Assembly: GCA_937125285.1 (NCBI GenBank)
Contig: CAKZLH010000244.1
Span: 1 to 64,000 of the forward strand
Source of the DNA: an uncultured Balneolaceae bacterium
Lineage (GTDB): Bacteria; Bacteroidota; Rhodothermia; Balneolales; Balneolaceae
DNA length: 64,000 nucleotides
Direction: 5' to 3'
Part shown: positions 5,848 to 36,081 of the stretch, in pieces
How positions within the stretch are numbered: position 1 is the first letter of the stretch
Layout of the letters: every line of letters starts with the position of its first letter
Position numbers and translations under genes: made by a program
The notes under the pieces: model-generated
What the model was told of the DNA's origin: nothing
What the model saw: the letters and a program-made list of their open reading frames with translations, nothing else
Database searches by the model: none

Positions 5848-7131
5848 ATGATTCAATTAGATATTAGTAAAGCTCGAAAATTTGTATCTGACGATGAATA
5901 CATTCACGCTCGTACATTAGCGCAGTCAGGTCTGGAACAACTAAAAGAAGGTACGGGGCCAGGCTCAGAATGGTTAGGTTGGAGAGAATTATTAGCGGAG
6001 CCTAACGATAAGCTTCTTGCCGAAATACAAGATTTAGCAACAAGCGTACGCTCTAGTGCGGATGTATTTATAGTATGTGGGATTGGGGGCTCGTATTTAG
6101 GAGCCAAAGCCGTTATTGATGCATTAAGGTCTGAGTTTGACCAAAGTGGCCCTGAAATTATTTATGCGGGGCATCACATGGGAGGCGCCTACCTAAATCA
6201 CCTTGTAGGCTACCTCAATGAACCCAAAGCCGACGGTTCAGCCAAAAGTGTTTATTTAAACGTAATATCTAAATCAGGCTCTACACTAGAGACAGCACTT
6301 TCGTTTCGGGTACTCAGGAATTTTATAGAAGAACGATTTGAAGACGCTTCAAATCGAATTATTTGCACGACGAGTGAACAAGGAGGCGTATTAAATGCCG
6401 TCATCGAAAAAGAAGGGTACCGGAAGTTTATTATACCATCGGATGTTGGCGGTAGATTTTCTGTGTTGACACCTGTAGGCTTGCTTCCAATAGCTGTAGC
6501 CGGCATAGATATCGCTGTACTTTTTCAGGGCGCTAAAGAATGTTATGATTCACTTGAGGAGAATTCCGAAGAGATTGTAGAGTATGCAGCACTCAGAAAT
6601 GCACTTCATGCGAAAGGTATTACCATTGATGTCTTTTCTTCATTTGAACCCGAACTGAAATCATTTGGAGGCTGGATACAGCAATTACTTGGCGAGAGCG
6701 AGGGAAAAGACGGAAAAGGTATTTTTCCTACGGTTGCTGCATTTTCAACAGACTTACACAGTTTGGGGCAATTTATTCAAGACGGTAAACGATCGCTTCT
6801 TGAGACTTTTTTGGTGGTAGAAGAAGCAAGCAGTGATTTTGTAGTTCCTTCTGGGGATCATTTTGGTGATGGGTTGGATTATCTTAACGGAGAATCATTT
6901 CATGCCATAAACAATAAAGCTAGACTTGGAACTATTGAAGCGCACTGCGAAGGTCAGGTTCCAATAATTACCGTTCAAATTCCTAGGATGGAAGAGCAGT
7001 GTATTGGAGCTCTAATTTACTTTTACGAGATGTTAACGGGTGTTTTTGTGTATAGTCTAGGAGTGAATCCATTTAATCAGCCAGGGGTTGAAGACTACAA
7101 AAAAGCTATGTATCGTCTATTGGGAAAATAA
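5848..7131 (+). CDS. pgi: Glucose-6-phosphate isomerase
   Basis: CGIGGSYLGAKAVIDAL, ISKSGSTLETALSFR, GGRFSVLTPVGLLPIA; placed after pfkA. Confidence 0.95.
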   Translation: MIQLDISKARKFVSDDEYIHARTLAQSGLEQLKEGTGPGSEWLGWRELLAEPNDKLLAEIQDLATSVRSSADVFIVCGIGGSYLGAKAVIDALRSEFDQSGPEIIYAGHHMGGAYLNHLVGYLNEPKADGSAKSVYLNVISKSGSTLETALSFRVLRNFIEERFEDASNRIICTTSEQGGVLNAVIEKEGYRKFIIPSDVGGRFSVLTPVGLLPIAVAGIDIAVLFQGAKECYDSLEENSEEIVEYAALRNALHAKGITIDVFSSFEPELKSFGGWIQQLLGESEGKDGKGIFPTVAAFSTDLHSLGQFIQDGKRSLLETFLVVEEASSDFVVPSGDHFGDGLDYLNGESFHAINNKARLGTIEAHCEGQVPIITVQIPRMEEQCIGALIYFYEMLTGVFVYSLGVNPFNQPGVEDYKKAMYRLLGK

Positions 7132-7143
7132 AGTACAAGAATC

Positions 7144-7779
7144 GTGTCCGAATCAAAAAAACATCAGTACATAGCAGTAGCGGGAAATATAGGTGCGGGT
7201 AAATCGTCACTGACCGGTTTGCTTGCTCAGCATTTTAACTGGAAACCATTCTACGAATCGGTAGATGATAATCCATATTTAGCCGACTTCTATGAGGACA
7301 TGCTTCGCTGGAGTTTTAATCTCCAGATATATTTTCTGTCCAGTCGTTTTAGGCATCAAAAAGACATGTTGGAGCAACAAGTCAGTTTAATCCAAGACAG
7401 AACCATCTATGAAGACGTGGAGATTTTTGCTAAGAATTTACATCAGATGAGTTTAATGAGTGACCGCGATTTCAGCAACTATGAATCACTCTTCAAAGAG
7501 ATGAGCTATTATTTACGCCCACCAGACCTTTTGATTTATTTACGCGCTCAAGTGCCTACACTTGTGAGGCAAATTCAACAAAGGGGTAGAGACTATGAAA
7601 ATTCAATCCGAATAGATTACCTCGAACGACTGAATAACCTTTATGAGGATTGGATTGATCGTTATCCTCACGAAAAACTCATTATTGATACCGATGATAT
7701 CGATTTTGTGAATGATAAAGAGGATTTAGGGCGCATAATTGAATTAGTAGAACAAAGATTGTACGGTCTTTTTAATTGA
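7144..7779 (+). CDS. Deoxynucleoside kinase family protein
   Basis: GTG start; P-loop AGNIGAGKSS, ESVDDNPYLADFYEDMLRWSFNLQIYFLSSRF, DRTIYED. Confidence 0.9.
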   Translation: MSESKKHQYIAVAGNIGAGKSSLTGLLAQHFNWKPFYESVDDNPYLADFYEDMLRWSFNLQIYFLSSRFRHQKDMLEQQVSLIQDRTIYEDVEIFAKNLHQMSLMSDRDFSNYESLFKEMSYYLRPPDLLIYLRAQVPTLVRQIQQRGRDYENSIRIDYLERLNNLYEDWIDRYPHEKLIIDTDDIDFVNDKEDLGRIIELVEQRLYGLFN

Positions 7780-7825
7780 TTGTACTCAAGTTCTATTATC
7801 CGTATCTTTCAAAGATTGATACGTT

Positions 7826-8332
7826 TTGGCTATGTTGAAGTTAAATATCTTTGAAATACCCGATGGCAAAAGCACTCGAGAGCTTCCAATCCCCAAAGAA
7901 TTTTTGGAAGAAGAGGATGTGGCTGTTATTCAAGGTAACCTTCACTTGATAATTGACCGAAGCCAGCACATGATTCATATCAAGGCGGATGTAATAGCAG
8001 AAGTTGAGTTAATCTGCGATCGATCGATGGACAGCTTTCCATTTGAGATAAATCGACAGGTTGATATCATTTTCAAAGAAGGACTATTAGAGGAGGATGT
8101 AGATTTGAATGCTTCAATTAAGCGTTTAGAAAAGCATCAGCAACTCCTAGATTTGGATCAAGATGTTAGAGATATGATACTTTTATCTTTACCATATAAG
8201 CGTATCCATCCTCGTTTTCTGGATGAAAACGGAAATATTACTGAAGCGTTCGACCAACAATTTGGCTCAACTTCTGACGATGAGGAAGTTGTTGATCCAA
8301 GGTGGAATGCGCTAAAAAAATTAAAAAATTAA
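7826..8332 (+). CDS. YceD/DUF177 family protein
   Basis: Position directly upstream of rpmF and plsX; LICDRSMDSFPFEIN and acidic C-terminus typical of DUF177. Confidence 0.85.
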   Translation: MAMLKLNIFEIPDGKSTRELPIPKEFLEEEDVAVIQGNLHLIIDRSQHMIHIKADVIAEVELICDRSMDSFPFEINRQVDIIFKEGLLEEDVDLNASIKRLEKHQQLLDLDQDVRDMILLSLPYKRIHPRFLDENGNITEAFDQQFGSTSDDEEVVDPRWNALKKLKN

Positions 8333-8350
8333 ATATTAGAACTTACTAGA

Positions 8351-8530
8351 ATGGCACATCCTAAGCGAAAAATCTCCAAGGCTAGACGCGACAAAAGAAG
8401 AGCGCACCATGCTATTTCAGAAACTACATTAGCTAAGTGCTCGAACTGTGGTGCTTTTCATAAATACCATCATGCTTGCCCAGAGTGTGGTTATTATAGA
8501 GGACGACAAGTACTTAGTATAAATAACTAA
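8351..8530 (+). CDS. rpmF: 50S ribosomal protein L32 (59 aa)
   Basis: Manual translation MAHPKRKISKARRDKRRAHHAISETTLAKCSNCGAFHKYHHACPECGYYRGRQVLSINN*; missing from the ORF track because it is short. Confidence 0.97.
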   Translation: MAHPKRKISKARRDKRRAHHAISETTLAKCSNCGAFHKYHHACPECGYYRGRQVLSINN

Positions 8531-8540
8531 ACTTAGTCAG

Positions 8541-9524
8541 ATGATAATAGCTGTAGATGCGGCTGGTGGTGATTTTTATCCTGAGAATCCTGTATTAGGC
8601 TCAAAAATGGCTCTGGATCTACATCCAGAGCTTCATATTTTGCTGGTAGGTCCCAAAGGACTCATCGAGCAGGAACTACAAAAGCACAGTATTAATACCG
8701 AGCGTATTACGGTGATCGATGCTCCTGACATCGTTTCTATGACCGATTCGCCATCTACAGCTTTAAAACAAAAGCCAAACTCTTCCCTTGCGGTTGGACT
8801 TTCACTTCACAAAAGTGGAAAGTGCGATGCCTTTGTAAGTGCGGGTAATACAGGGGCACTTATGGCCGCCTCCATGTTTATTTTAGGGAAATTGGAGGGT
8901 GTTTCTCGCCCTACAGTAGCTACTTATTATCCTTCTTTAAAAGGATTTAGGCTAATCATTGATGCGGGAGCTAATCTGGAAATTAAACCAGAAATGGCTC
9001 GTCAATTCGCAGTAATGGGTCAAATTTATGCTCAAGAAATTATGGGTATAGATTCACCTAAAATTGGCCTCATTAATGTTGGAGAAGAAGAGGGAAAAGG
9101 CACCGACCTGCACAAGGAAATTTATCAGCATCTAAAGTCAGTACCTAATTTTATTGGGAATGTTGAAGGGCGAGACATACTCAAGCCAAAAGCGGATATT
9201 TACATTACCGACGGCTTTGTTGGCAATGTAATACTAAAACTAGGTGAATCTATTCCTGAAATTTTAGGAAGTTTGATTCATCAAACTATGCAAACGAAAC
9301 AGTTATCGCCGGAACAACTACAACTTATTCAGGGCATTTTATCAGAGTCCTTATCTCCATTTGAGTATGAACGAGTAGGTGGTTTACCATTTTTAGGGGT
9401 GAATGGAATTAGTATTGTGGGTCATGGAGGAAGTTCACCTTTAGCCCTAAAAAATATGATTCAAGTTGCCTTAGACTGTATCGAGCATTCCATGAACGAG
9501 AAGATAATTGCTTCATTAAATTAA
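8541..9524 (+). CDS. plsX: Phosphate acyltransferase PlsX
   Basis: AVDAAGGDFYPENPVLG, SAGNTGALMA, DGFVGNVILKLGE. Confidence 0.97.
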   Translation: MIIAVDAAGGDFYPENPVLGSKMALDLHPELHILLVGPKGLIEQELQKHSINTERITVIDAPDIVSMTDSPSTALKQKPNSSLAVGLSLHKSGKCDAFVSAGNTGALMAASMFILGKLEGVSRPTVATYYPSLKGFRLIIDAGANLEIKPEMARQFAVMGQIYAQEIMGIDSPKIGLINVGEEEGKGTDLHKEIYQHLKSVPNFIGNVEGRDILKPKADIYITDGFVGNVILKLGESIPEILGSLIHQTMQTKQLSPEQLQLIQGILSESLSPFEYERVGGLPFLGVNGISIVGHGGSSPLALKNMIQVALDCIEHSMNEKIIASLN

Positions 9525-9535
9525 AGACGGTCAGA

Positions 9536-10528
9536 ATGGAACCAATCAGAGCTACTATAACAGCGGTAGGACATTTTCTTCCAGAGGATAAACTAACCAA
9601 CTTCGACCTTGAAAAAATGGTCGAAACCAATGATGAGTGGATTCGAACTAGAACAGGGATTGAAGAACGAAGAATCTTAAAAGATCCAGAGAAAGCCACT
9701 TCCTATATGGCTGCTGAAGCGGCCAAAGAAGCTTTAGAAGAAGCAGGCGTTCAACCCGAAGAAGTGGATTTAATTATCGTTGCTACCGTAACCCCAGATT
9801 ATATTTTTCCTTCTACTGCTTGCTTGGTACAAGATGCTATTGGTGCTAAAAATGCTTTTGCTTTCGATTTATCAGCGGCTTGCTCGGGTTTTATTTATGC
9901 TTTAACGAATGGTGCTGCCTTTATAGAGAGTGGTCGGTACAAAAAAGTATTGGTCATAGGAGCAGATAAAATGTCTTCAATTATCGACTATACCGATCGA
10001 ACAACCTGTATTATATTTGGAGACGGGGCAGGGGCGGTACTTTTAGAGCCTTCTACGGACGGAACTGGAATCATCGATAGTATTCACTATACAGAGGGTG
10101 ATACCAATTGTCATCTTGTTCAAAAAGGAGGGGGAAGTAGATATCCGGCCTCACATGAAACAGTGGATCAGCACATGCATTTCATCAAACAAGATGGTAA
10201 AGCTGTATTCAAAAAAGCTACAGTTGGCATGGCAGATGTGTCGGCTGAGATAATGGAGAGAAATAATTTAACTCCAGACGATGTTAAATGGTTGGTGCCG
10301 CATCAGGCTAATCTGAGAATTATTGACGCCACAGCTCGTAGAATGGGGCTTGGTACCGAAAAGGTCATGATTAACATCAATAAGTATGGAAATACCACAG
10401 CGGGAACCATTCCTTTGTGCTTATATGATTGGAAAGATCAATTATCTAATGGAGATGGACTTATTCTAACCGCTTTTGGTGGAGGATTTACTTGGGGTGC
10501 TGTTTATCTAACTTGGGGTGGTAAGTAA
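9536..10528 (+). CDS. fabH: Beta-ketoacyl-ACP synthase III
   Basis: TNDEWIRTRTGIEERRI, DLSAACSGFIYAL, VPHQANLRII, GNTTAGTIPL. Confidence 0.97.
   Translation: MEPIRATITAVGHFLPEDKLTNFDLEKMVETNDEWIRTRTGIEERRILKDPEKATSYMAAEAAKEALEEAGVQPEEVDLIIVATVTPDYIFPSTACLVQDAIGAKNAFAFDLSAACSGFIYALTNGAAFIESGRYKKVLVIGADKMSSIIDYTDRTTCIIFGDGAGAVLLEPSTDGTGIIDSIHYTEGDTNCHLVQKGGGSRYPASHETVDQHMHFIKQDGKAVFKKATVGMADVSAEIMERNNLTPDDVKWLVPHQANLRIIDATARRMGLGTEKVMININKYGNTTAGTIPLCLYDWKDQLSNGDGLILTAFGGGFTWGAVYLTWGGK
9750..9760 (+). repeat. TTCAACCCGAA 11-mer, copy 2
   Basis: Exact match inside fabH (Q-P-E frame). Confidence 0.9.
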
Positions 10529-29778: not shown

Positions 29779-31329
29779 ATGTCTACCAATCGTTATCTAA
29801 CATATGTACTGTTGTTGCTAATTGGATTAACCATAGGATTTTTATGGGATGGTTATATGGATAGAAACCAACTCAATACCAATGATTCTCTCAAGTTTAC
29901 AACCATCAGTAAAAGTGACAGCAGCTTTATAGACGAATCCGTCTTATTGGAACTAGGTGAACGGTTTTTATTCCGGAAAGTAGCCGACGAAATAACACCT
30001 TCAGTAGTGTATATAGAAACTTTGGTACCTGTAGAATTGCCCCAGGACGGGAATCATGATTTTTCTGATGAATTTTGGAATCGATTTTTACCAAGAAGTG
30101 CTAGAAGTGTCGGCTCAGGTGTAATTATTAGCTCAGACGGGTACATCTTAACCAATCATCATGTGATTGAAGGGGCACAGTCCGATGGCATAGAAGTTGT
30201 TTTAAATGATAAAAGAGCTTACGCCGCTCAGATTATTGGCTCGGATCCAAGTACAGACTTGGCGGTAATTAAAATCGATGCTGTGAATTTACCCTCTGCC
30301 ATCATTGGTAATTCTGATTTGGTCCAAGTAGGAGAGTGGGTGATGGCTGTGGGTAATCCGTTCCGCTTGAGAGCTACGGTAACAGCAGGTATAATTAGTG
30401 CTTTGGGACGTGATGTCCAAATCATAGATGATCGCATGAGAATCGAGAGTTTTATTCAAACCGATGCCGCAATAAATAAAGGTAACAGTGGAGGAGCACT
30501 GGTGAACACAAGTGGCCAACTCATTGGTATTAATACAGCAATAGCTTCACAGAGTGGTAGCTATCAAGGATATGGTTTTGCTGTACCTAGCAATTTAGCC
30601 ACCAAAGTAGCTTCTGATATCATCACATACGGTAAGGTGCGAAGACCTTTGTTGGGGGTTCAAATACAATCGGTAGATTACAATAGGGCCGTGACATTGG
30701 GATTGCCTGAAGTGGTGGGTGTTGAAATTATTGCCTTAAATCCTGGAGGTGCGGCACAACTTGCGGGTATTATGAAAGGGGATGTGGTCCTCAGTGTAGA
30801 TGACTTTCCGGTAAATGCATCTAATGCTCTACAGGAGCGTATTGCGTTAAAATCACCAGGAAGTGAAACAAAATTGCACATTTGGAGAAATAACGAAGTT
30901 ATTACTATTAGGGTTGAATTAGATGAACTATCCCTTGTTGCACAAGTCAATGATGAGATAGATGCTTTAGATCAGTTTTTGGGTAATGAAACGGATGAAC
31001 CCAATTTGACCGAAAACCCAAGAGATGATGGTACTGGGCAGGTATGGTTGAATACCCCATTTGGCTTTGAAATTAACGGCCTTTCTACTCCAGAAGATCC
31101 CTCAATGTACGACTGGTATGTCGCAGGTATACAACAAGACTCCGAAGCTTACAAAAGGGGATTAAGAAATGGTGATCAATTGTTACGCATCGATCGCCAA
31201 CGTATACTAACGCCAATGGACTTGCAGCGATACTTGCAAAACTCTCTCAAAAACTCATATTCCGTATTATTGGAATGCATAACGGAAGATAATGAGAAAA
31301 AATTTAGCTACTTCTCTTTTAATAAATAA
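29779..31329 (+). CDS. HtrA/DegP-like trypsin protease with PDZ domains
   Basis: GSGVIISSDGYILTNHHVIEGA, DPSTDLAVIKI, NKGNSGGALVNTSGQLIGINTAI. Confidence 0.94.
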   Translation: MSTNRYLTYVLLLLIGLTIGFLWDGYMDRNQLNTNDSLKFTTISKSDSSFIDESVLLELGERFLFRKVADEITPSVVYIETLVPVELPQDGNHDFSDEFWNRFLPRSARSVGSGVIISSDGYILTNHHVIEGAQSDGIEVVLNDKRAYAAQIIGSDPSTDLAVIKIDAVNLPSAIIGNSDLVQVGEWVMAVGNPFRLRATVTAGIISALGRDVQIIDDRMRIESFIQTDAAINKGNSGGALVNTSGQLIGINTAIASQSGSYQGYGFAVPSNLATKVASDIITYGKVRRPLLGVQIQSVDYNRAVTLGLPEVVGVEIIALNPGGAAQLAGIMKGDVVLSVDDFPVNASNALQERIALKSPGSETKLHIWRNNEVITIRVELDELSLVAQVNDEIDALDQFLGNETDEPNLTENPRDDGTGQVWLNTPFGFEINGLSTPEDPSMYDWYVAGIQQDSEAYKRGLRNGDQLLRIDRQRILTPMDLQRYLQNSLKNSYSVLLECITEDNEKKFSYFSFNK

Positions 31330-31333
31330 GAAC

Positions 31334-31852
31334 ATGAACTATTTAAAATCTATCATTGGACTCTTGTTGCTAAGTGTACTGATGTTGTTTTGTGCACCGT
31401 CCAATGAATTAACCAGCGATAATAATCAGAGTCCATTCATACCTAATTGGTATAGCGCAGATGGGTACGCAAGTGACTCAACAACCGTTTCTTATTTTTA
31501 TGTTTCGCAGTCAGTAGATTCTTTGTCATCCATTGAAATGGCAAAAAAAGTAGCAGAAGTTGAGTTGATAAATAATATAGACGATCGGGTAGAGGCCTAT
31601 AGAAGATTGCAAAATGAGTCCGAATTATGGCAAAGTACCGATAGTATTCGGCAGCTTAGAATGGCGATAATTCAGCTCTTAGGTCGTTCTGAAATGGTTC
31701 ATTCAGTCACTCAAAAAGAAGGGCGATACTATAAAAATTATATACAGATATCCATATCGAAGAATTCCATCATGAGCCAATTACTCGACTCAACAACGCT
31801 TGATTCTAAGATAGCTGCCGATGTCATGAGTGAACTATTAGATACTTTGTAG
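31334..31852 (+). CDS. Putative lipoprotein of unknown function
   Basis: Start re-assigned from 31292 to MNYLKSIIGLLLLSVLMLFC|APSNE (signal peptide with lipobox-like Cys), avoiding overlap with the HtrA gene. Confidence 0.65.
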   Translation: MNYLKSIIGLLLLSVLMLFCAPSNELTSDNNQSPFIPNWYSADGYASDSTTVSYFYVSQSVDSLSSIEMAKKVAEVELINNIDDRVEAYRRLQNESELWQSTDSIRQLRMAIIQLLGRSEMVHSVTQKEGRYYKNYIQISISKNSIMSQLLDSTTLDSKIAADVMSELLDTL

Positions 31853-31928
31853 TTTTTACAATTTTAAACGAATCAGCAGTGATTTTACTCGTTACTTCAA
31901 AAATTAACTTAACCTTTACATGTGTACT

Positions 31929-33299
31929 ATGAACATTAGAAATATTGTAGCAGGCTTGGCTATTTTGGTCTTGGTTACTTTTTCTGAAAAAGCAACAGGT
32001 CAGGATGCCCCCGCTCATGCCATAACCAATGTAACTATCCATTTGGCAAGTGGAGAAACTTTAAGTAATTCCGATATCGTATGGAGAGATGGTATTATTG
32101 TAGATATCGGAAGCGATTTAGATATACCTTTTGATGTATATACCATCGATGGTGGAGACTCTCTCCACGTATTCCCCGGATTGATAGACGGACTAGCTAC
32201 CTGGGGAAGTCCTGAGCAGCCACGGAATCTACCTACCTTAGAAGATCCAGGTAATCCACCTTATGACCGAGCGGGAGTTCAACCCGAAAGAAAACCTGTT
32301 CATTATTTAAACGAGGATAAGTCGATATCGGCAGCAATGAAAGCGGGTTTTACCCTTGTAGCTCTTGGTTTAGATGGGCAAATGCTACCTGGTCAAGTTC
32401 AGCCATTTAATTTGTCTTCTGAGCAACTTACCGAATCTCACTTATTTTCTACCAGCATTGGACTACAGGGTAGTTTTGATACGGCTCCCGGTGGATGGGG
32501 TAGTGGAGCTTATCCATCTACACAAATGGGGGTAATGGCTTATTTTCGACAATTAATGTACGATGCTGCTGCCCTACAAGAGCATATGAATTATTTTGAG
32601 AAGCATCCTGATATGCCTCAACCTGAACATAGTGAAGTTTTAGAAGCACTATTCCCACTGATTAATGCCGAAATGCCACTGATTTTTGAAGTTGATTCAA
32701 AAGAAGAAATCGAACGTTTATTTCGATTACAGGATGAATTTGGCTTTGATGTCATCTTAGTTGGTGCTAGAAACGCTGCTCCTTTAGCCGCCGATCTTAA
32801 GAATCGCAATATATCGGTGATTGCTAACTTAGATGTGAATGATAAACCAAAGTGGATGACTGATGCGGAGAAAGAATCCAAAGACAGCGAAAATGATAAG
32901 GATGGTGAAGATAAGTCTGAAGAAAGTGATGAGCTAAGCGAGGAAGAAATCACCTTTAGGGCTAAACAAGAAGCTGCGTGGAATAGTGAAATTCAAAATA
33001 TCCGATCATTAATTGATAGTGGAGTTTCTGTTGGTTTTAGTTCGGCAGGTTTGTCCGTTAAAGACCTTCAGTCCAAAATTACACTCTTAGTGGATGAAGG
33101 TGTTTTAACCACAACGGAATTATTAAAAATGATGACACATACCAATGCCGATATTTTAGGATTGAGCAATAGAGTAGGTGATCTAAAAGTTGGGATGGGT
33201 GCTCATCTTATTTTGACTACTGGTCCACTTTTTGAGAAAGGAACTAAAATTCACACTCATGTTAGTCAGGGTGTAATCAATGACTTTATGGAGAATTAA
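31929..33299 (+). CDS. Secreted amidohydrolase-fold protein lacking the HxH metal motif
   Basis: Signal peptide; PGLIDGLATWG where a canonical family member has PGxIDxHxH; C-terminal NADILGLSNRVGDLKVGMGAHLI typical of the family. Confidence 0.75.
   Translation: MNIRNIVAGLAILVLVTFSEKATGQDAPAHAITNVTIHLASGETLSNSDIVWRDGIIVDIGSDLDIPFDVYTIDGGDSLHVFPGLIDGLATWGSPEQPRNLPTLEDPGNPPYDRAGVQPERKPVHYLNEDKSISAAMKAGFTLVALGLDGQMLPGQVQPFNLSSEQLTESHLFSTSIGLQGSFDTAPGGWGSGAYPSTQMGVMAYFRQLMYDAAALQEHMNYFEKHPDMPQPEHSEVLEALFPLINAEMPLIFEVDSKEEIERLFRLQDEFGFDVILVGARNAAPLAADLKNRNISVIANLDVNDKPKWMTDAEKESKDSENDKDGEDKSEESDELSEEEITFRAKQEAAWNSEIQNIRSLIDSGVSVGFSSAGLSVKDLQSKITLLVDEGVLTTTELLKMMTHTNADILGLSNRVGDLKVGMGAHLILTTGPLFEKGTKIHTHVSQGVINDFMEN
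32278..32288 (+). repeat. TTCAACCCGAA 11-mer, copy 5
   Basis: Exact match inside amidohydrolase gene 1 (Q-P-E frame). Confidence 0.9.
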
Positions 33300-33301
33300 T
33301 T

Positions 33302-34684
33302 ATGAAAAAAATACTACACATATTTATTGTATTTGGAGTCTTTTCCCTTTCGGCATCTGCTCAGGATAAAGGTTCTGTGTTTATAGAAAATGCCACATTA
33401 GTAACCGTTACAGATGATATCATCGAGAATGGAGATATACTCATCACCAATGGTGTTATCACGCAGATAGGCACGGATTTATCAGCACCAGCTGGTGTAA
33501 CCGTGATTGATGGTACTGGCAAATTTGTAATGCCAGGAATTATTGATGCCCATTCGCACTTAAATACCGTAAGTACCAATGAAGCCAGAAATCCTGTTAC
33601 TGCAGAAGTAACAATGGAAGAGTCCATTGATCCTAACGAAGTGTCTATTTATCGTGCACTTGCTGGGGGTGTAACTTCTATCCATCTAATGCATGGTTCT
33701 GCGAATGTTATTGGAGGACAGGGTGAAACCCTTAAACTTCGCTATGGAACCACCCAAGATGGTATGCGATTTGATGGGGCGAAGAGAACCATTAAATTTG
33801 CTCTAGGTGAAAACCCAACCCGTGTTCACGGTCAAGGGAATGGTATTCTCCCAAGAACACGAATGGGAGTTGAGCAAATTATCAGAAGTCACTTTGATGA
33901 AGCCTTAGATTATCGAGTGAAACGAGAAGCTTATCTCTCAGCAAAACAAAAGTATGAGAGTGATAGAAGAGGCCGAACAGCTCCACCTGTACCAGTGGCA
34001 AAAAATCTTCGTTATGATGTATTAAATGATATAATTGATGGAGAAATTCTTGTTCATTGTCACTCGTATAGAGCCGATGAAATACTCATGCTCATGAGAG
34101 TTTTTAATGACTACGGAATTAAGAATTATACCTTTCAGCATGCAAATGAAGCCTTCAAAGTAGCTCCTGAGATTGCAAAAAATGGAGCTTATACCTCTGT
34201 GTTTGCCGATTGGTGGGCCTATAAATTTGAAGTTTATTATTCAACTGCATTTAATGCTACCATTTTGAATGAAAATGGAGTCACCAACAGTATTAACAGT
34301 GATAGTAATGAGTTGATTCGTCATTTGAATCATGAAGCAGCGAAAACAGTCCGATATGGTCAAACCTCCGAAGCAGATGCTTTAAAAATGATTACTATCA
34401 ACCCTGCTATGCAATTAGGAATTGCTGATAAAGTTGGAAGTTTGGAAGTAGGTAAACAAGGTGATATTGCCATCTGGAGTGGTCATCCATTAAGTATCTA
34501 CAGTAAAGTAGAGCAAACTTATATTGATGGGACTAAATATTTTGACTTGGCTAATGATCCCGTAGATATGCGAATCGACATTAGCAGTGATGATAACTAT
34601 GAGGAGTCATTCACCACAGGCTTTATCAAGGGTAGAGAAGCTGATGCTTGTATGAGTGATGTGTTTCAATTAATTCAAGAATAA
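33302..34684 (+). CDS. Secreted amidohydrolase (imidazolonepropionase-like)
   Basis: MPGIIDAHSHLNT, ILVHCHSYRADE, FQHANEA, NPAMQLGIADKVGSLEVGKQGDIAIW. Confidence 0.9.
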   Translation: MKKILHIFIVFGVFSLSASAQDKGSVFIENATLVTVTDDIIENGDILITNGVITQIGTDLSAPAGVTVIDGTGKFVMPGIIDAHSHLNTVSTNEARNPVTAEVTMEESIDPNEVSIYRALAGGVTSIHLMHGSANVIGGQGETLKLRYGTTQDGMRFDGAKRTIKFALGENPTRVHGQGNGILPRTRMGVEQIIRSHFDEALDYRVKREAYLSAKQKYESDRRGRTAPPVPVAKNLRYDVLNDIIDGEILVHCHSYRADEILMLMRVFNDYGIKNYTFQHANEAFKVAPEIAKNGAYTSVFADWWAYKFEVYYSTAFNATILNENGVTNSINSDSNELIRHLNHEAAKTVRYGQTSEADALKMITINPAMQLGIADKVGSLEVGKQGDIAIWSGHPLSIYSKVEQTYIDGTKYFDLANDPVDMRIDISSDDNYEESFTTGFIKGREADACMSDVFQLIQE

Positions 34685-34702
34685 TACGAGGAGACTAATA
34701 AA

Positions 34703-36022
34703 ATGAAATCGATTAAATTTACGGCACTCTTAGGTTTCCTATTACTGTTCTCTGGAGCATTGGAAGCACAAATAACAGATAAACCCGAGTATGGGAAAAT
34801 AGCCATTATAGGTGCTACGGTTCATACCGTTAGTAATGGTAGTATCGAGCAGGGTATAGTTACCATACATAATGGTAATATTGAGTATGTGGGTACCGAT
34901 CGCTCCAAAGTCGGTAGTGATTATAAGATAATTGAAGCTACTGGAAAACATGTCTATCCAGGTTTTATGGATAGTGGAACCTCACTAGGTCTTGTGGAAA
35001 TTAACGCGGTACCCGTTACCGTGGATAACCGCGAGGTTGGGAATATTAATCCAAACATGCTAGCCTTTACTGCTTGGAACCCTCATAGTGCAGCTATACC
35101 AGTTACTCGTGTAAGCGGGGTCACTCATGTCCTTACAGCTCCTCAGGGAGGCTTGGTCTCTGGACAAGCCGCTATTATGGATTTGTGGGGATACTCACCT
35201 GATTCTATGGCGGTAGATGCCACTGCGGGTATGGTACTTAACTGGCCTAGCGTACGGAGTGGTGGTTGGAATAGACGAACACCTGAGCAAATGGAAAAAC
35301 AATACAAAGAAACCATTGGTGCATTGAATAAACTATTGGATAATGCACGTTTTTATGATCAAATGATGTCTGAATTTGAATCCAACCCTAATGGAAAAGT
35401 TAAGCCAGAAAAGAATCAACATCTTGAAGCTATGCGAGAAATGGTGAATGGTCAAACACCGATTATTATCTCGGTATCAAGTGAAAAAGATATTCTAAAT
35501 GCTATTGAGTGGTCAAAACACGAGGATCATTCAGATTTGAATATAGTTTTTGCGGGTGTTGAAGAAGGTTGGAGAGTAGCAGAAGAAATTGCTGAAGCGG
35601 GTATCCCATGTTTAGTTTCTACCCTCTACACACCTACTAGAGCCTATGATCATGTACATAGACCGTATGAAAATCCAGGCGCTTTAATGAAAGCGGGTGT
35701 AAAAGTAGCTATTATGACTGGTGAAGTAGAAAATGTTAGAAATCTACCCTTTAATGCCGGATACGCTGCTGCATATGGTATGGGTACAGAAGAGGCTGTT
35801 AAAGCTGTTACCATTAATCCAGCACAAATTTTTGGGGTTGATCATCTGTTGGGTAGTTTAGAAGCAGGCAAACAAGCGAACCTTTTCATTAGTACAGGTG
35901 ATCCATTTGAACCACTAAGTCAAATAGAGCAAGTGTTTATAGCTGGTTTTCAAATACCAATGGATAGCCGACATACACAGCTATTTGAAGAATTCTTAGA
36001 TCGAGATGCGACTCAAAACTAG
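34703..36022 (+). CDS. Secreted amidohydrolase-fold protein lacking the HxH metal motif
   Basis: Signal peptide; YPGFMDSGTSLGL in place of PGxIDxHxH; C-terminal INPAQIFGVDHLLGSLEAGKQANLFI. Confidence 0.78.
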   Translation: MKSIKFTALLGFLLLFSGALEAQITDKPEYGKIAIIGATVHTVSNGSIEQGIVTIHNGNIEYVGTDRSKVGSDYKIIEATGKHVYPGFMDSGTSLGLVEINAVPVTVDNREVGNINPNMLAFTAWNPHSAAIPVTRVSGVTHVLTAPQGGLVSGQAAIMDLWGYSPDSMAVDATAGMVLNWPSVRSGGWNRRTPEQMEKQYKETIGALNKLLDNARFYDQMMSEFESNPNGKVKPEKNQHLEAMREMVNGQTPIIISVSSEKDILNAIEWSKHEDHSDLNIVFAGVEEGWRVAEEIAEAGIPCLVSTLYTPTRAYDHVHRPYENPGALMKAGVKVAIMTGEVENVRNLPFNAGYAAAYGMGTEEAVKAVTINPAQIFGVDHLLGSLEAGKQANLFISTGDPFEPLSQIEQVFIAGFQIPMDSRHTQLFEEFLDRDATQN

Positions 36023-36050
36023 TCGTTAATCATAGAATTATACCTGTAAA

Positions 36051-36081
36051 AGAACCACTTCCAAAGTGGTTCTTTTTTTTT
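36051..36081 (+). terminator. Rho-independent terminator after the amidohydrolase cluster
   Basis: Perfect 10-bp stem AGAACCACTT-cca-AAGTGGTTCT followed by a T run. Confidence 0.9.

Follow-up and report, generated by a model that had tools for sequence, protein, structure and literature searches.

Collapsin response mediator proteins (dihydropyrimidinase-related) are animal neuronal proteins of the amidohydrolase fold that are generally held to be without its metal site, and they are not encoded in operons with an active sister. In the aspartate transcarbamoylase-pseudo-dihydroorotase complex of Pseudomonas aeruginosa, an inactive amidohydrolase-fold chain is required for complex assembly and activity (PMC7053772). 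In trypanosomatids, dead paralogues termed prozymes activate their sisters through hetero-oligomers, as described for S-adenosylmethionine (AdoMet) decarboxylase (PMC5201418) and deoxyhypusine synthase (PMC3663545). Dead amidohydrolase chains and sister-activating dead paralogues are already known in this way, and we found neither a dead/active/dead amidohydrolase trio nor an active/dead pair described earlier for Bacteroidota in the open-access literature, a search with subscription papers mostly outside its reach. Here we describe such a trio, the adjacent genes P1, P2 and P3, in a stretch of 64,000 nucleotides (the window; contig CAKZLH010000244.1, positions 1 to 64,000) from an uncultured Balneolaceae bacterium. 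The source (GCA_937125285.1) is a fragmented metagenome-assembled genome (MAG) of 399 contigs, 87% complete, whose nearest relatives by the trio genes are Balneola and Balneolaceae MAGs. With a probability of about two in three, we read the trio as a single functional unit, namely a periplasmic amidohydrolase that is an obligate hetero-oligomer and in which P2 would be catalytic and P1 and P3 would be non-catalytic subunits of a putative physical complex.

All three genes lie on the plus strand: P1 at 31920..33299 (459 amino acids from the ATG at 31920, 456 from that at 31929), P2 at 33302..34684 (460 amino acids) and P3 at 34703..36022 (439 amino acids). Their reading frames are intact and separated by only 2 (P1-P2) and 18 (P2-P3) nucleotides, and each protein begins with what reads as a Sec-type signal peptide, with a conserved Gln close to its end. 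The three proteins exceed the Pfam Amidohydro_1 cut-off, and the closest solved structure to all of them is 3ooq, Thermotoga maritima TM0814 (E = 1.7e-61 for P2, 1e-33 for P3 and 6e-8 for P1). An earlier note on this DNA, made from the letters without database searches, had described three tandem secreted amidohydrolase-fold genes with intact frames, signal peptides and near-zero spacing, and each part of that description is borne out.

The metal centre is complete in P2 and missing from its neighbours. P2 carries the motifs PGIIDAHSHL, VHCHSYRAD and FQHANEA and has a predicted binuclear site with all its six ligands in place (H84, H86, K165, H254, H280 and D334), a set that reads HHKHHD in TM0814 likewise; the codons of D82-A-H84-S-H86, which supply the beta1 HxH ligands, are at 33545..33559 on the plus strand. 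P1 instead reads PGLIDGLATWG and LIFEVDSKEEIERL, and P3 reads PGFMDSGTSLG, IIISVSSEKDILNA and LGSLEAGKQANLFI. In both profile-profile and joint alignments, GLATWG of P1 and SGTSLG of P3 stand opposite the beta1 HxH of P2, and FEVDSKE of P1 and SVSSEKD of P3 stand opposite its beta5 His. The comparisons also leave the window's P1 and P3 without the beta4 Lys, beta6 His and beta8 Asp. The ligand mapping that the earlier note had proposed therefore places six positions in P2 and finds none of them retained in the P1 or P3 of the window. That note was right that the middle protein keeps PGIIDAHSHL, HCHS and QHANE and that the first and third have replaced the HxH pair and the beta5 His, and it understated the extent of the loss.

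This pattern holds well beyond the window. In a survey of 253 homologous domains from Bacteroidota (85 P2, 86 P1 and 82 P3), every P2 domain had six of six ligands. P1 and P3 domains had 0-2 each; the HxH pair was present in none, and the beta6 His and beta4 Lys were retained in 0 of the 168. Because P2 is complete in 85 of 85 domains while HxH never occurs in 86 P1 and 82 P3 domains, the ligand loss is not due to chance. The catalytic amidohydrolase ligand set (HxH, Lys, His, His, Asp) is thus found in P2 and is absent from P1 and P3, and P2 is, by its residues, probably a metal-dependent hydrolase of the cell envelope. No substitute site was apparent: across the 86 P1 domains no His or Cys column reaches 40%, and across the 82 P3 domains no conserved His or Cys column falls at a barrel ligand position, H41, H83 and H424 (window numbering) being the only P3 columns of His or Cys to reach 40%. 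An alternative metal site in P1 or P3 is unlikely on this residue pattern, and the check on such a site leaves the pseudoenzyme reading of the earlier note unrefuted. P3 does conserve polar residues away from the ligand positions, namely E99, D108 and E111, which form an acidic loop after beta1, and R136, R346 and N347. The conserved columns of P1 are mainly Gly and Ala with few polar residues, from which we infer a scaffold-like protein.

The trio is inherited jointly across many Bacteroidota families, and its carriers include a cultured strain, Fodinibius sediminis DSM 21194 (locus L015). We sampled 148 Bacteroidota genomes of the GTDB set, together with loci fetched from near relatives, and ran P3 and P2 profiles on the 148 genomes; scores were bimodal (at least 283 versus at most 198 bits for P3, and at least 356 versus at most 236 bits for P2). 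P3 was detected in 85 genomes, P2 in 84 and both in 84 (Fisher p = 1.4e-41, a value before phylogenetic correction, with kinship addressed by within-family comparison alone). The sole genome with only P3 by search (G122) proves, on a reading of its locus (L078), to have a P1-P2 fusion next to P3. At least seven families (f13, f14, f17, f18, f21, f22 and f32) contain genomes with both genes and genomes with neither, so that P2 and P3 were gained or lost jointly several times. Every P2 locus examined has P1, fused to P2 in 48 loci (fusions of about 1,000 amino acids) and directly upstream in the rest. Outside families f23, f24 and f28, nearly every family has P3 behind P1-P2 in the cluster; in ten genomes of these three families, P3 is located away from P1-P2, yet both are present. 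P3 without P2 was not found anywhere in the sample, unlinked P3 included. Co-conservation of the trio, which the earlier note had singled out as a check, is accordingly strong: 84 of the 85 genomes with P2 or P3 have both, the remaining one also has P1-P2, and P1 accompanies P2 at each P2 locus examined.

Two further observations concern these loci. One genome (G014) carries two complete trios of different sub-lineages, one near the window's type (L025) and one with a long P1 (L026). In three of the unlinked loci, a gene of about 300 amino acids encoding a Peptidase_S9 (prolyl oligopeptidase-like) protein overlaps the end of P3 by 4 nucleotides (L047 7144-8037, L053 7178-8080 and L055 7449-8351).

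Phylogeny indicates that the loss of the metal site is old. P1, P2 and P3 each fall on one side of a branch with a support of 100 in the Shimodaira-Hasegawa-like approximate likelihood-ratio test (SH-aLRT), P1 and P3 are joined to the exclusion of the other chains (97), and P2 lies with TM0814 (94), which places it among TM0814-like amidohydrolases. With the ligand columns removed and a mixture model applied, P1/P3 remained split from the rest (100/98) and P2 remained with TM0814 (96/92), and each protein was still one clade after removal of those columns. As P1 and P3 are single clades even without the ligand columns, loss of the site predates the divergence of the sampled families. Pairwise ratios of non-synonymous to synonymous substitution rates (dN/dS), from comparisons with unsaturated dS, were 0.08-0.20 for P1, 0.03-0.11 for P3 and 0.03-0.09 for P2; values of 0.03-0.20 place P1 and P3 under purifying selection. 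Tree and dN/dS together reject the idea that P1 and P3 are degenerate or recent duplicates of P2. In its co-inheritance and its retention by selection, the locus resembles a prozyme-like arrangement, a pseudoenzyme beside an active paralogue. Ligand loss, co-inheritance and these dN/dS values support the proposal of the earlier note that two retained pseudoenzymes flank one active-type enzyme.

Structural models suggest that the fold has outlived the metal site. An AlphaFold2 model of P3 (69 aligned sequences; predicted local distance difference test (pLDDT) 89.9, predicted template modelling score (pTM) 0.87) had 3ooq as its best solved match in Foldseek, with a template modelling score (TM) of 0.84 normalised by target, and P3 is predicted to have the full amidohydrolase fold. 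A natural P1-P2 fusion (L032; 986 amino acids, order as in the window) was modelled from an alignment of 42 fusions with pLDDT 87.4 and pTM 0.83, and its best match was again 3ooq (TM 0.89 normalised by target). The Pfam matches of all three proteins and the agreement of both models with 3ooq identify the fold of the amidohydrolase superfamily, a triosephosphate isomerase (TIM) barrel with a flanking beta-sandwich. Because the pTM of 0.83 covers the whole fusion, it points to a defined arrangement of the P1 and P2 domains; superposing one half alone should give a value near 0.5. The model confidently predicts the relative placement of the two barrels and of a beta segment of about 100 residues. 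In the fusion protein (6831-9788, minus strand) this segment is all-beta and occupies residues about 448-545, between P1 and P2; it has no Pfam match, and it is probably also C-terminal in longer P1 proteins (about 560-600 amino acids).

We propose that P2 would be the only catalytic chain, a binuclear, carboxylated-lysine type enzyme similar to TM0814 that probably acts on a peptide-like substrate or on some other amide, and that P1 and P3 are ancient paralogues whose fold has persisted without the metal site. P1 may be a constitutive 1:1 partner of P2, often in the same polypeptide, and association of P1 with P2 is very likely because natural P1-P2 fusions exist. P3 would be a further subunit that assembles with P2, and its place in the complex is argued from its joint inheritance with P1-P2. 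Both dead chains may shape or stabilise the P2 active site or gate access to it, and the acidic loop after beta1 of P3 (E99, D108 and E111), together with R136, could form the lining or the gate of an active site next to it.

Several observations weigh against this proposal. P1 evolves faster than P2, and a looser role would fit it too. The position of the beta4 Lys in P1 and P3 is uncertain since the stretch is poorly aligned, and the beta-rich segment of about 100 residues in the modelled fusion is not in the window's shorter P1. Additionally, P3 fused to P1 or P2 was not seen. This last point bears on an alternative in which P1 is an obligate subunit of P2 and P3 stays outside the complex, serving the pathway by itself or in company with a different hydrolase. 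Such an arrangement is improbable, although it is the likeliest of the rivals. In its favour, the P1-P2 fusions never take in P3, and ten sampled genomes have P3 unlinked, with the Peptidase_S9 gene overlapping it in three of those loci. However, P3 never occurs without P2 in the sample, even where unlinked, and in nearly every other family its gene comes after P1-P2 in the cluster.

A looser version gives P1 and P3 separate periplasmic roles, as binding or moonlighting proteins whose dead barrels take up a ligand such as substrate or product, in the pathway of P2 but with no shared complex; it could account for the polar residues that P3 conserves off its ligand positions. We consider it quite unlikely, given that P1 is covalently joined to P2 in 48 loci and that its Gly- and Ala-rich conserved columns suggest a scaffold rather than a binding site. 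That P1 and P3 are active enzymes whose barrel supports a different chemistry, either metal-free or with an alternative metal, is less likely still: migrated catalytic residues are known in some pseudoenzymes (PMC10211241) and the acidic loop of P3 is conserved, but neither protein has a His or Cys column suited to a barrel site, and no solved homologue is nearer than 3ooq, an ordinary amidohydrolase. Least credible of all is decay, with P1 and P3 as functionless P2 duplicates kept by chance in one lineage. The lost metal sites and the divergence of P1 would agree with it, whereas the age of the loss, the intact frames, the low dN/dS and the near-perfect co-inheritance speak strongly against it. 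The hetero-oligomeric amidohydrolase with P2 as its catalytic chain remains our preferred reading.

The substrate class of P2 is perhaps peptide-like. Two weak pointers to peptides are its superfamily branch, which holds prolidases and arginine carboxypeptidases, and the overlap of a Peptidase_S9 gene with unlinked P3 at three loci. Assigning a function from family models was rejected as no curated cut-off was attained, neither for Xaa-Pro dipeptidase NF051886 (cut-off 500 bits; P2 59, P3 43.6 and P1 23.2 bits) nor for imidazolonepropionase TIGR01224 (cut-off 298 bits; P2 53.3 and P3 42.3 bits). Gene neighbourhood was also rejected as a guide to function, because conservation of the flanking genes (HtrA-type protease, lipoprotein-like and ABC) is essentially limited to the Balneola group. 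Comparison of the neighbourhoods of trio loci revealed no broadly conserved flanking gene outside that group, and this is why we regard the trio itself as the unit.

In the window, an HtrA-like trypsin/PDZ protease gene and a lipoprotein-like gene without a known Pfam family, overlapping by 38 nucleotides, lie upstream of the trio at 29779-31852; this pair is kept beside the trio essentially only in the Balneola group. Downstream of P3, a hairpin resembling an intrinsic terminator (36050..36081, plus strand; 11-bp perfect stem AAGAACCACTT/AAGTGGTTCTT, then a T run) reads as the end of the operon. P1 proteins of the Balneola group carry a variable, very acidic low-complexity insertion (KESKDSENDKDGEDKSEESDELSEEE) ahead of the last barrel strands, at 32870-32950 in the window.

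A second, two-gene active-plus-dead set was also observed, often in the same genomes. Five loci (L105, L106, L107, L108 and L109) each hold two adjacent open reading frames encoding an active chain with HHKHHD and a dead chain with HVATGG or similar. Across the 148 genomes the active chain was found in 38, the dead chain in 37 and the two together in 37, the lone exception being a partial active gene in a fragmented genome; the distribution of the pair differs from that of the trio. The branch that bears on whether site loss is shared by the dead chain of the pair and P1/P3 had a support of 95, and of 85/63 without ligand columns and with a mixture model. We tentatively suggest, at somewhat less than even odds, that the trio is an obligate amidohydrolase of three chains, spread phylum-wide, whose one active chain has its active site completed or gated by two different dead paralogues, and that it belongs to a broader tendency of Bacteroidota, dating from ancient duplications, to pair active with dead amidohydrolases.

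These findings have implications for annotation. Family models call P1, P2 and P3 alike 'amidohydrolase', so that in many Bacteroidota genomes an annotation as enzyme is probably wrong for P1, P3 and the N-terminal half of the fusions of about 1,000 amino acids. Should the complex prove real, P2 expressed alone may be inactive or unstable, which could explain a branch without an assigned function. As a very old bacterial pseudoenzyme set with a natural fused form, the trio is also well suited to studies of how a dead paralogue turns into an essential subunit.

Comparison with known systems shows how far the trio departs from them. P2 shares a broad superfamily branch with the Xaa-Pro dipeptidases of NCBIfam NF051886 and with related carboxypeptidases and prolidases (3mtw, 3feq/3n2c), but its 59 bits fall far short of the cut-off of 500 and place it outside that family. 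TM0814, on which we found no paper in the open-access literature, is the best solved match to all three proteins and has its clade (94%) and its ligands in common with P2; as far as known here, it consists of one active-type chain, unlike a set in which P1 and P3 are without a metal site. Collapsin response mediator proteins share with P1 and P3 a fold without a metal site, whereas operon pairing with an active sister sets P1 and P3 apart from them. A 2026 paper on metallo bile-salt hydrolases (PMC13081902) deals with PF07969 YtcJ-like enzymes, and a term search of that paper turned up no inactive subunits. The P. aeruginosa pseudo-dihydroorotase complex offers a dead amidohydrolase-fold chain in a complex of the kind that we propose for the trio (PMC7053772), but its active partner is an unrelated transcarbamoylase, while the trio pairs a same-fold paralogue with two different dead chains, all secreted. 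Trypanosomatid prozymes likewise place a catalytically dead paralogue beside an active sister; they are eukaryotic, belong to unrelated enzymes and comprise one dead paralogue each, in contrast to the phylum-wide bacterial trio, with its metal-dependent hydrolase fold and two dead paralogues.

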